Shown here piece after piece: positions 38,242 through 41,699 of a stretch of 42,074 nucleotides of DNA (its first letter is position 1; the number at the start of each line of letters is the position of its first letter). The translations under genes were made by a program, and so were the position numbers. The notes below the pieces were generated by a model, which saw only the letters and a list, made by a program, of their open reading frames with translations, made no database searches and was not told the DNA's origin. The DNA comes from a virus. The stretch lies in IMG/VR virus record IMGVR_UViG_3300030328_001803, positions 1 through 42,074 of that record. One strand, given 5' to 3'.

Positions 38242-39792
38242 TTATTTATCTCCTTTTTTCTTTTTCTTTTCTGGATCATACCACAAACCATCATCATTTG
38301 TATCCCAACCTTTTTCTTCTAAGGCAGATAGACACACAATCTCACCGTCTGTTGTCTCACACCACTTATCTTCTTTGTATATCTCATTAGTCCACTCACA
38401 CTCAAAGTAACCTAAGTCATGCATCTGATCATGAGGTATCCACTTATCTTCTGGACCAGAGTACACACACTCATCACTATCCCAGAACTCATCTAAGTCC
38501 TCAATATAAATTACATTATCATGGTCTCTCCACACATATATTTGTTGTGGCTGTATTATAACCATGTCATCATGTGGAAAGTAATCATCTGACCACTCAC
38601 AATAATCATATCTCTCATAAAAACAATCCTCACAAAAGACATCATCACCATACCATCTTGCATTATCTTCATGAGTAGGATCACCACAATCCATACAATA
38701 CTCAGAGTCACCTAGTACACCACTATAACAACTAGCATCATAGTCACCACATTCAGTTACCTCTAAATATTTATCATTTACTACTGCTAATGATCTAGGT
38801 TCTAAATCTAAGTAAGGTCCTATCACACCATCACCATGAGGTATATGTAATAACTTTGCACCTCTCCAATCTGGATTTACACACTCAGCACCAATCTCAT
38901 CTAACGCATCTTGTATCTTGTTCATAGAATGTTCACACACACCATATATCGGACCTGCCTGTGGTCTATCTGTCTTATCTGTATGATACACCACACATCT
39001 AGAACCTGTCCTTCCTTGACCATCTTTGGTGTAGTAGATAGTAAAATCACCTGACCCATATATGTAGGCTGGGTGATGTGATTGTTTCTCAAAAGAATAT
39101 CTCATGCAAGAACAAGCAATAGACTTACGCAAAGAAGTAGTCTTAGGATTGCCCATAGGTGCATGGTTCTCCTCTTTGTATACACTGGCAAACACTTTTG
39201 GATCACTGCTCTTGTGTAACGTAAAGTCTTTACTACCAAACTCAAGATTGTACTTGTCTACTACTGCACCTAGACCTGCATCACTAAGTTCTGGAAATAT
39301 CATACGTATAGCCTTACCTACTTTCATAGCAGTTTCCCTCTCACGCACACGATCCTCATGAGATTTAGTAATAGATATTTTACCTACAAACTTTTGTGAA
39401 CGAAAAGGATTTAGACAATCTAAACGATCACGCAATTTAGTATCTGACATACTAATAAAAATACCTGCTACATTAGCATGAAACCAATCACATAGTTCAC
39501 CATCAAGTCTTGAGTGATTTAATCTGAACAATGAATTATTACTCTTAGTAACTACTGCACCCCAATCTTTAAGTACGGGATCAGTAATCTCTTTACCTTG
39601 ATAGACCTTGAAACCCTGTTCACAATTCCTGACATGATAGCACATATTATCAATGAGTACCACACCATCTTCTAGTATATCATTTTTTGTTTTGGTGAAC
39701 CGATCACCTCTTAGTATAGGATAGGCTTTACCTGCCCTAATAAATACAGAATCAATATAATCATTACGTTCTGGTTTTATGTAAAAGCTCAT
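38242..39792 (-). CDS. Unknown protein with C-terminal zinc-finger-like repeats
   Basis: This is a 516-residue protein. The middle (about 235-310) has a conserved-looking core, MRYSFEKQSHHPAYIYGSGD, then FTIYYTKDGQGRTGSRCVVY. The C-terminal 170 residues carry treble-clef-like Cys pairs (CMDCG and CEDCF) and three related acidic-aromatic units: CEWSDDYFPHDDM, CVYSGPEDKWIPHDQM and CEWTNEIYKEDKWCE. The end is a Lys run (KKKKKKGDK). I do not know its function; zinc binding and nucleic-acid or protein contact are plausible. The ribosome site AGAGGAG lies nine bases before the ATG. It stands directly upstream of the peptidase-like gene, and the two may act together. Confidence 0.7.
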   Translation of the reverse strand: MSFYIKPERNDYIDSVFIRAGKAYPILRGDRFTKTKNDILEDGVVLIDNMCYHVRNCEQGFKVYQGKEITDPVLKDWGAVVTKSNNSLFRLNHSRLDGELCDWFHANVAGIFISMSDTKLRDRLDCLNPFRSQKFVGKISITKSHEDRVRERETAMKVGKAIRMIFPELSDAGLGAVVDKYNLEFGSKDFTLHKSSDPKVFASVYKEENHAPMGNPKTTSLRKSIACSCMRYSFEKQSHHPAYIYGSGDFTIYYTKDGQGRTGSRCVVYHTDKTDRPQAGPIYGVCEHSMNKIQDALDEIGAECVNPDWRGAKLLHIPHGDGVIGPYLDLEPRSLAVVNDKYLEVTECGDYDASCYSGVLGDSEYCMDCGDPTHEDNARWYGDDVFCEDCFYERYDYCEWSDDYFPHDDMVIIQPQQIYVWRDHDNVIYIEDLDEFWDSDECVYSGPEDKWIPHDQMHDLGYFECEWTNEIYKEDKWCETTDGEIVCLSALEEKGWDTNDDGLWYDPEKKKKKGDK

Positions 39793-40181: not shown

Positions 40182-40468
40182 TTAATAATCCTCCACCCAT
40201 TAGAACCTAAACGTCTATGAAAATCTTCACATGCGTCCATCAAGTTCATATCATAGTGACCACTATAATAAGTAACTTGACCATCTTCCATTACATCTTC
40301 AGCAATGGTCATAAAAGGTAGATCCTTAAACGTAGGATCAAGAACCTTACAAATAATATAAGTATTACCTGTATCATTTGTTTCTCTATCCACTACTAAC
40401 ACTTCCTTAATACCTATATAAATACAGTTATACATCTTTTCATATTCATTCATATAACTCTCCATCAT
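40178..40468 (-). CDS. Unknown small early protein
   Basis: I do not recognise this 96-residue acidic protein. It has segments IGIKEVLVVDRETNDTGNTY and GHYDMNLMDACEDFHRRLGS and looks mixed alpha/beta. The ATG at 40468 overlaps the stop of a 42-residue membrane micro-protein (ATGA), and an internal ATG follows at the second codon. Its stop overlaps the next start by four bases, so it is translated as part of a coupled chain. Confidence 0.6.
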   Translation of the reverse strand: MMESYMNEYEKMYNCIYIGIKEVLVVDRETNDTGNTYIICKVLDPTFKDLPFMTIAEDVMEDGQVTYYSGHYDMNLMDACEDFHRRLGSNGWRIIK

Positions 40469-40593
40469 TTAATTATAATAGGGTACAAAAAACTACTCAT
40501 ACCGAATAGATTAAGTACCAACTCAATAAGGTATACCACCACTATAATAATAATGCAATACCTTAATCTTCCATAGGCATAATAATCCATCAT
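40465..40593 (-). CDS. 42-residue membrane micro-protein
   Basis: The chain has a charged head (MMDYYAYGRLRYC) and then a strong hydrophobic span IIIIVVVYLIELVLNLF at about residues 14-30, enough for one membrane helix. Both ends overlap neighbouring genes in ATGA: the start with the stop of the 34-residue gene, the stop with the ATG of the 96-residue gene. Coupled packing plus a clear membrane segment make it likely to be real although very short. Its role is unknown; small membrane proteins of early regions may affect host membrane functions or superinfection. Confidence 0.55.
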   Translation of the reverse strand: MMDYYAYGRLRYCIIIIVVVYLIELVLNLFGMSSFLYPIIIK

Positions 40594-40694
40594 CTACGTC
40601 TGACAGGTTCATTAAGAAACCTAATCACATATCCCGTAATAAATCCACTATATACTAGTAGAAAATAAAAACCCCATTCAATATAAAGTTCCAT
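40590..40694 (-). CDS. 34-residue membrane micro-protein
   Basis: The peptide begins MELYIEWGFYFLLVYSGFIT and ends GYVIRFLNEPVRRR: one hydrophobic helix and a basic tail that would face the cytoplasm. ATG 40694 has GGAG six bases upstream; an in-frame ATG at 40706 is possible. Its TGA overlaps the ATG of the next micro-gene. It is the first gene after the structured noncoding stretch 40718-40908, so its expression may be controlled by that RNA. Confidence 0.5.
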   Translation of the reverse strand: MELYIEWGFYFLLVYSGFITGYVIRFLNEPVRRR

Positions 40695-40717
40695 CACATT
40701 CTCCATTATTTAAATTA

Positions 40718-40823
40718 CTGGCAGTTTCACTAGATGCCAAGCTAGGTGAAAGGTTCATTCTTATGTTAGCTAATGAGCTTTATGCGTGTGACTCCATCAC
40801 TTGCATCAATGTTATAATGAACC
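40718..40823 (-). ncRNA. Candidate structured RNA: three-way junction plus hairpin
   Basis: In the leftward transcript GGTTCATT (40823-40816) pairs with AATGAACC (40759-40752) as an 8-bp closing stem. Inside it are a hairpin ATGC-aa-GTGA/TCAC-ac-GCAT (40806-40782) and a small hairpin AGCT/AGCT with a CATT loop (40779-40768). Directly next to the closing stem lies a hairpin of nine pairs with one bulged C (40751-40725). Its loop segment TTGGCA can pair with TGCCAG just downstream (40723-40718), a possible pseudoknot or alternative fold. No ORF is present. It could be a regulatory leader for the micro-genes or a small RNA. Confidence 0.5.
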
Positions 40824-40879
40824 AATAACACAAATAAACAAACGACACATCATTCATTTATTAATGCTATTGCATAGAT

Positions 40880-40908
40880 AAGCAACCACACTTAATGCGT
40901 AGCTGCTT
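40880..40908 (-). ncRNA. 12-bp hairpin after the first leftward gene
   Basis: On the minus strand AAGCAGCTACGC (40908-40897) pairs with GTGTGGTTGCTT (40891-40880) around an ATTAA loop. All 12 positions pair if three G-U pairs are allowed; on the plus strand those become A-C mismatches. It lies 16 bases after the stop of the 183-residue gene and has no T-run, so it may be a processing or stability element. Confidence 0.55.
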
Positions 40909-40924
40909 ACCTGCTGTGCATCAC

Positions 40925-41476
40925 TTACTTAGTCATTAAGTATTTGCTAACAATATTATATAATTCCATATCAATATCATCATTCTTATGCTTTTCAGCA
41001 TCTTTAGTAGATCCCTCTAAAGCCCTATCCCATTTTTTCTTTAGAGAATTAATATCATCTAAAGATATAACAGGCTTATACTCAGGCTCTTTAGTAAATG
41101 TAGACCACATATTTTGATGTGCAGTAACCACATCATCATAAGATACTTTTGATCGTTTCTTATTATATGTGAAAAGAGATTTACCATCATCACCTTTAAC
41201 CCAATTAAATCCACAATATGCTTCAATCCAAGATTTAATTGCGTTGTTGCGTACTGCTGTACCATCAAGTTCTAATACAAGTGTATTCATGAATCTGCAA
41301 GCAGTACCTACATCACCAGATTGATGCCATCTTAACATCACTTTAGTCAATACAGACTGAATAGCATTATTTACAGTTTTTACTTTTGATTTTACTGCAA
41401 CAATATCCTTTTCAATCATTGCATCAGTTAATTTTACATCTAAAGTTTTTGGTAATTTTACGTTAATTTTAGCCAT
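40925..41476 (-). CDS. First leftward gene, unknown early protein
   Basis: I do not recognise this 183-residue protein. It begins MAKINVKLPKTLDVKLTDAM and is largely helical and basic, with two Trp-containing segments (KSWIEAYCGFNWVKGDDG, AHQNMWSTF) and a charged C-terminus. ATG 41476 is chosen for the GAGGAG site nine to ten bases upstream; an ORF start at 41530 would add 18 residues with no such site. It is the first gene after the operator-rich control region, and a hairpin and a structured RNA follow it. It has no recognisable DNA-binding motif, although an early regulatory role would fit its place. Confidence 0.65.
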   Translation of the reverse strand: MAKINVKLPKTLDVKLTDAMIEKDIVAVKSKVKTVNNAIQSVLTKVMLRWHQSGDVGTACRFMNTLVLELDGTAVRNNAIKSWIEAYCGFNWVKGDDGKSLFTYNKKRSKVSYDDVVTAHQNMWSTFTKEPEYKPVISLDDINSLKKKWDRALEGSTKDAEKHKNDDIDMELYNIVSKYLMTK

Positions 41477-41547
41477 AATTTTTTTCTCCTCATAATATGA
41501 CAAATATTGCATACCATCATTGATATACAATACAATGCATACATCAC

Positions 41548-41553
41548 ATTATA
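41548..41553 (-). promoter_or_regulatory. Possible -10 box for the first leftward gene
   Basis: A perfect TATAAT on the minus strand lies 71 bases before the ATG at 41476. No good -35 hexamer stands at 16-18 bp, so the promoter would be weak or activator-dependent. The nearest palindromic sites are 43-90 bp upstream of it. Confidence 0.35.
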
Positions 41554-41595
41554 AGAAACAAACACCACATAGGTGCGACCCACAAAGCTTAGACA

Positions 41596-41616
41596 TAGCG
41601 TACTAATAGTGTAAAC
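41596..41616. repeat. Operator-like site A: two half-sites in tandem
   Basis: Half-sites TAGCGTAC (41596-41603) and TAGTGTAA (41607-41614) stand one helical turn apart in the same direction. Both match the half-site TAGYGTAY of the full palindromic sites, the second with one change. Confidence 0.5.
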
Positions 41617-41625
41617 ATTCAAGCC

Positions 41626-41642
41626 ATACACTAATAGCGTAC
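41626..41642. repeat. Operator-like site B: best 17-bp palindrome
   Basis: ATACACTAATAGCGTAC is a near-perfect palindrome with consensus RTACRCTAWTAGYGTAY: both half-sites agree if purine/pyrimidine transitions are allowed. The length and symmetry are those of dimeric repressor operators. Confidence 0.6.
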
Positions 41643-41699
41643 ACACTAAACACCACTTTGCAGATCGCACCTGACAGGTAAACCCCCTTGATATTTTTT

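Follow-up and report, generated by a model that had tools for sequence, protein, structure and literature searches.

Structured elements between the genes of phage early messages are already known, and several of them resemble in part the one described here. In T7, host RNase III cleaves the early polycistronic mRNA at five sites (PMC4858673); like our element, the T7 sites are long hairpins between co-directional early genes, with a duplex of about 22 bp. In our case, however, two tandem hairpins lead into a three-way junction and an H-type pseudoknot, and we claim no sequence relation. Likewise, in the lambda cIII/N leader and int/sib systems, structured RNA beside ribosome sites or 3′ ends controls phage genes, and RNase III cleavage exposes occluded ribosome sites, as in lambda cIII (PMC5371410), although the anatomy is different and a comparable role for our element is one that we infer. 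The put RNAs of HK022 lie near promoters and consist of about 70 nt with two stem-loops (PMC9378689); putL and putR share with the element the character of a structured nascent RNA in a phage early operon, but the element is about 190 nt long, follows the first gene, is intercistronic, and contains a junction and a pseudoknot. Finally, in being compact, in having A in its third loop and in lying near a Shine-Dalgarno sequence, the H-type pseudoknot recalls the translation-type riboswitches of the preQ1 and SAM-II classes and the STAXI pseudoknots; in contrast to the riboswitches, the element has no Rfam score and no known ligand-binding core was recognised in it, and STAXI pseudoknots are repeated two or three times whereas the one here is single. 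Hence, intercistronic structured elements as such have precedents, and it is the junction-pseudoknot anatomy that is unusual and lies outside any Rfam 15 family.

The window, by which we mean the whole stretch of viral DNA analysed (42,074 nt, record IMGVR_UViG_3300030328_001803), carries on its leftward strand genes for a primase-helicase, an integrase and a DNA polymerase whose nearest match, at 55% identity, belongs to Roseobacter phage CRP-6. The element studied is on the minus strand, after a stop codon and before a Shine-Dalgarno sequence, between co-directional genes: the upstream gene occupies 41476–40928, and across the gap a micro-gene starts near 40706 or 40694. Following the direction of transcription, the features of this locus are:

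40928–41476, minus strand: upstream gene, phrog_1448 (function unknown), the first gene of the leftward early operon.
40876–40912, minus strand: hairpin A, a 16-bp stem directly 3′ of the upstream gene's stop codon.
40823–40872, minus strand: hairpin B, 9 bp, a 1×1 mismatch and 13 bp (22 pairs), with the loop TGTG.
40752–40823, minus strand: P1, the 8-bp closing stem of the three-way junction, in which GGTTCATT (40823–40816) pairs with AATGAACC (40759–40752).
40782–40806, minus strand: P2, a hairpin of 4+4 bp with the pentaloop UGGAG (TGGAG in the DNA).
40768–40779, minus strand: P3, the hairpin AGCU-CAUU-AGCU.
40725–40751, minus strand: alternative 9-bp hairpin (S1 plus a UUUCA/UGAAA extension), in which TTTCA(C)CTAG (40751–40742) pairs with CTAGTGAAA (40733–40725) around one bulged C.
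40718–40745, minus strand: H-type pseudoknot, with S1 CUAG/CUAG (40745–40742 with 40733–40730), S2 UUGGCA/UGCCAG (40740–40735 with 40723–40718), L1 a single C, and L3 UGAAAC, six bases that include A.
40590–40706, minus strand: downstream micro-gene of 38 or 34 aa, with the Shine-Dalgarno sequence GGAG at 40704–40701.

The original prediction described a multi-stem RNA within 40718–40823, and its parts are all found on the minus strand: the 8-bp closing stem with two inner hairpins, and the adjoining nine-pair hairpin whose loop TTGGCA is complementary to TGCCAG. Those limits do enclose structure but are too narrow, for the structured region begins at 40912 and hairpins A and B, directly upstream of the named piece, had been left out. 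The gap does lack an open reading frame, as had been stated; a hidden one is ruled out by stops and single-nucleotide indels that differ between the window and a relative, L002, and none is conserved. A tRNA/tmRNA search found nothing. The downstream micro-gene contains a hydrophobic stretch (judged by eye).

Predicted stability is concentrated outside the piece first named. Taken by itself, that 112-nt piece is of no exceptional stability (z −1.38, with 23 of 200 shuffles as good); the proposed comparison with shuffled sequence succeeds for the full gap (40695–40924, 230 nt; z −3.86, 0 of 200 shuffles) and fails for the part. The same gap in L002 has a z of −4.86, and in the window the region is the second most structured of 418 windows of 200 nt taken on both strands of the whole genome. 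This exceptional stability is due mainly to hairpins A and B, which are two of only three hairpins of at least 15 net pairs in 42 kb, both strands scanned; they stand in tandem, on the transcribed strand only, and their G-U pairs suit an RNA of that strand. (The third, of 25 pairs at 38598–38652 on the minus strand, lies within the coding sequence of a 516-aa protein.) An 8-bp Watson-Crick stem together with a 4+6-bp H-type pseudoknot occurred in 0.2% of shuffles, a figure that is indicative only, as the criterion was set post hoc. A two-sequence RNAalifold consensus joined the 5′ strand of P1 to downstream sequence; we rejected this pairing, as both single-sequence folds give the exact 8-bp P1.

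Four pattern scans of viral contigs and three protein searches yielded only two genomes besides the window that have the locus, L002 and L003; a further relative, L008, stops before the gap. L002 carries the whole region and is the only relative bearing the element in the collections searched. Between it and the window, the junction P1–P3 is identical at 72 of 73 aligned bases (98.6%), differing by one substitution and two single-base indels: P1 and P3 are unchanged and P2 has one compatible change, C-G to U-G. Identity falls to 80.5% and 83.8% in the flanking genes (87–90% at second codon positions) and to 88–91% in other parts of the gap. All seven substitutions in the stems of A, B and P1–P3 preserve a standard pair, five of the five in hairpin B among them, whereas random placement gives seven of seven in 0.2–2.6% of trials (P 0.002–0.026, depending on the share of transitions). 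With two carriers only, the covariation comprises one double change and compatible single changes, and a shuffle control on two sequences cannot reach significance. Taken with the junction conserved above coding level and the folding energies, the compatible changes bear out the view that this is a real structured RNA on the leftward transcript, and we regard the gap element as very probably a functional RNA.

It is worth considering the opposite view, that the gap is non-functional intergenic sequence with chance folds, its identity with L002 reflecting recent shared ancestry by recombination. The unexceptional energy of the 112-nt piece, the two carriers and the lack of the element in L003 would fit; against it stand the seven pair-keeping substitutions, the z scores of the whole gap (−3.9 and −4.9) and the near uniqueness of the hairpins in the genome. 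Moreover, since the rest of the gap is only 88–91% identical, the 98.6% block is not part of one uniform recombined tract. Recombination could still be a partial source of the high local identity, but we consider it quite improbable that the element has no function.

L003 is informative in another way. It has hairpin A only; eight T come next, then a short spacer rich in A+T and, ahead of the first micro-gene, the same TGCCAG...GGAG. The 5′ strand of hairpin A, AAGCAGCTACGCAT, is common to all three relatives, yet in L003 (6545–6581), where it comes immediately after the first early gene, the hairpin makes an intrinsic terminator (17 pairs, T8), and in the window and L002 the T tract is missing. 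Support for the fold, which stands between co-directional genes, comes from two genomes; the third lacks it and has a terminator at that place. Hairpin B and the junction, with the greater part of the pseudoknot, behave as a module of about 150 nt occupying the position of the terminator tail; the three genomes are compatible with a gain in the window and L002 or a loss in L003. The gene that follows is less constant: the first micro-gene (38 aa) is missing in L002, where the RNA precedes the next one. The micro-gene set at 40201–40706 (minus strand) also varies between the sister phages, the small genes after the 96-aa gene being different in L002.

The original prediction saw a conflict between the nine-pair hairpin and the pairing of its loop, which are connected by one base, and proposed either a shortened pseudoknot or a two-state switch. 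Comparison with L002 favours the former: S2 shows one compensatory double change (TTGGCA/TGCCAG to TAGGCA/TGCCTA), and the UUUCA/UGAAA extension of the nine-pair hairpin has one C-G pair broken. The stems named at the outset are kept in the relative apart from this one pair. The simplest fold that fits both genomes is the H-type pseudoknot of 4 bp + 6 bp, whose first loop is a single base, and it settles the steric conflict without a switch. A switch is less favoured; nonetheless, the predicted energies in the window (−5.5 kcal/mol for S2 alone, −5.2 for the nine-pair hairpin) are nearly equal and may leave room for one.

Within the gap there is no minus-strand promoter-like site, and no G-C hairpin followed by a U tract that would mark an intrinsic terminator. 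These absences and the position point to an mRNA element acting in cis and not to a separate small RNA, and the suggestion of an independently transcribed phage small RNA finds no support. The position and the long hairpins do fit the other early suggestions, a leader of the membrane micro-genes or a processing domain, short of proving either. Our preferred reading, held tentatively and by analogy, is that the element may be a selectively maintained, cis-acting intercistronic region that serves processing and translation control in the leftward early mRNA, much as the RNase III sites of T7 and lambda do, and that has an unusual junction-pseudoknot domain. Hairpin A, past the stop codon, would protect the first message at its 3′ end or define that end. 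Hairpin B would offer a long duplex fit for RNase III, whose cut would part the two halves of the transcript: its length resembles that of an RNase III site, and beside the duplex of about 20 bp or longer of T7-like sites it has 22 pairs with one mismatch and hairpin A has 16, pairing that is kept in L002. The cut would create a 5′ end at which the junction and pseudoknot could fold, a short way ahead of the micro-gene's Shine-Dalgarno sequence, and there they might stabilise the micro-gene message and set ribosome loading. All of these steps, from transcription across the gap and RNase III cleavage to message protection and control of translation, are ones that we infer. Two observations sit uneasily with such processing: the conservation of the junction goes beyond what a simple stabiliser would call for, and L003 manages without the element.

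The first of these observations, an unusual conservation that may leave room for a specific partner, protein or ligand, invites the strongest alternative, which is that the junction-pseudoknot is a riboswitch or a protein-bound translational operator of the micro-genes. A ligand, or a phage or host protein, would stabilise the pseudoknot beside the Shine-Dalgarno sequence and block ribosome loading. Conservation is near total and includes the unpaired junction bases, the 3′ end of the pseudoknot stops about 10 nt ahead of the Shine-Dalgarno sequence, and S2 covaries while the competing hairpin loses a pair. On the other hand, the gene directly downstream differs between the window and L002, which is unusual for a ligand-specific switch, Rfam gives no match, and an expression platform with mutually exclusive pairings is not established; of the conserved aptamer and expression platform by which a riboswitch is recognised across several genomes, what is seen is a conserved junction in two carriers only. 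We therefore think this alternative possible but on the unlikely side.

Further from our preferred reading is the idea that the region serves read-through, either as an RNA like the HK022 putRNA that keeps the host polymerase going or as a mere replacement of the terminator tail. It would account for hairpin A being a canonical terminator in L003 and lacking its T tract in the window and L002. No phage RNA polymerase gene was found among the proteins scanned, so the host polymerase is likely used. However, put RNAs are promoter-proximal, of about 70 nt and with two stem-loops (PMC9378689), whereas the element comes after a whole gene and downstream of a terminator-like hairpin, and a leader RNA upstream in the same operon is a better put-like candidate; we judge read-through improbable. 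A similarly low probability attaches to a new class of phage regulatory RNA, in which a three-way junction with an H-type pseudoknot would act as a ligand- or protein-sensing switch or a polymerase-modifying RNA, swappable with a plain terminator in sister phages. Still less probable is retroregulation of the upstream gene in the manner of lambda int/sib, in which a cut in hairpin B would let exonucleases degrade the phrog_1448 message from its 3′ end in read-through transcripts: there is a long duplex 3′ of the stop codon, and the terminator version in L003 would yield a stable 3′ end, but hairpin A, standing on the gene side of the cut, should stop exonucleases, and a second promoter whose transcript ends at hairpin A is not known. 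A CsrA/RsmA-type site, at which a CsrA dimer would bridge the AUGGA (which we take to be a CsrA motif) in the short P2 hairpin loop and the downstream AUGGAG Shine-Dalgarno sequence, is very improbable, as AUGGAG is the common Shine-Dalgarno sequence of the operon and its recurrence may be coincidence.

The statement that no named RNA family has such a plan holds for Rfam 15: there was no match in the window at the gathering threshold, and with the search relaxed to E values up to 10 the best were far below threshold (for example mir-703, 20.2 of 88 bits). Known small ribozymes were considered, and their Rfam models gave no match. A covariance-model search of the kind that had been proposed, made with the junction-pseudoknot, recovered only the window and L002 among the relatives compared, which included the full records of ParMal1 and MedPE-SWcel-C56. 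With blastn, the gap against phages and a 161-nt core against plasmids gave only short matches at chance level, and a scan of genome contigs for GTGATGGAGTCACACGCAT gave two 19-mer matches (a Clostridiales MAG and Rhodococcus) with unrelated flanks, about the number expected by chance. Phage annotation covers proteins, and structured mRNA elements between early genes mostly go unlisted. A module that replaces the tail of a terminator between sister phages would be a case of early operons rewired through RNA alone, and this junction-pseudoknot is compact enough to be probed directly.

The most structured window of the genome (z −5.75) is the leader of the same operon, where two features precede the first gene:

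41571–41672, minus strand: leader RNA, a long interrupted stem with a conserved apical UAUGGCUUGANUGUUUAC, common to the window, L002 and L003.
41480–41564, minus strand: long hairpin directly after the leader element, 21+13 pairs in the consensus, conserved in the three genomes.

The second of these pairs the GAGGAG Shine-Dalgarno sequence of the first gene, just before its ATG at 41476, and is possibly a translation switch controlled by RNase III. In the two together, 16 of 70 pairs are changed on both sides in the three sequences and 96.7% of the cells pair; neither any of 500 shuffles nor any slid version approaches this. The leader RNA has no Rfam match, and no further relatives turned up, the context being common only to L002 and L003 among 13 pattern matches. 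Its comparative support is better than that of the gap element, and it supports the idea that RNA structure controls this operon at multiple points.

Distant homologues of the upstream gene (31–33% identity) in ParMal1 and MedPE-SWcel-C56 come right after gene-free stretches of about 1.2 and 1.9 kb, and the stretch of some 300 nt ahead of each gives a more stable fold than its shuffles (z −3.2 and −2.2, respectively). Upstream non-coding sequence in L002 (1–960) and L003 (4900–5700) is rich in GTTTA..TAAAC-like and TTGAC palindromic repeats and may be an origin or an array of regulator-binding sites.
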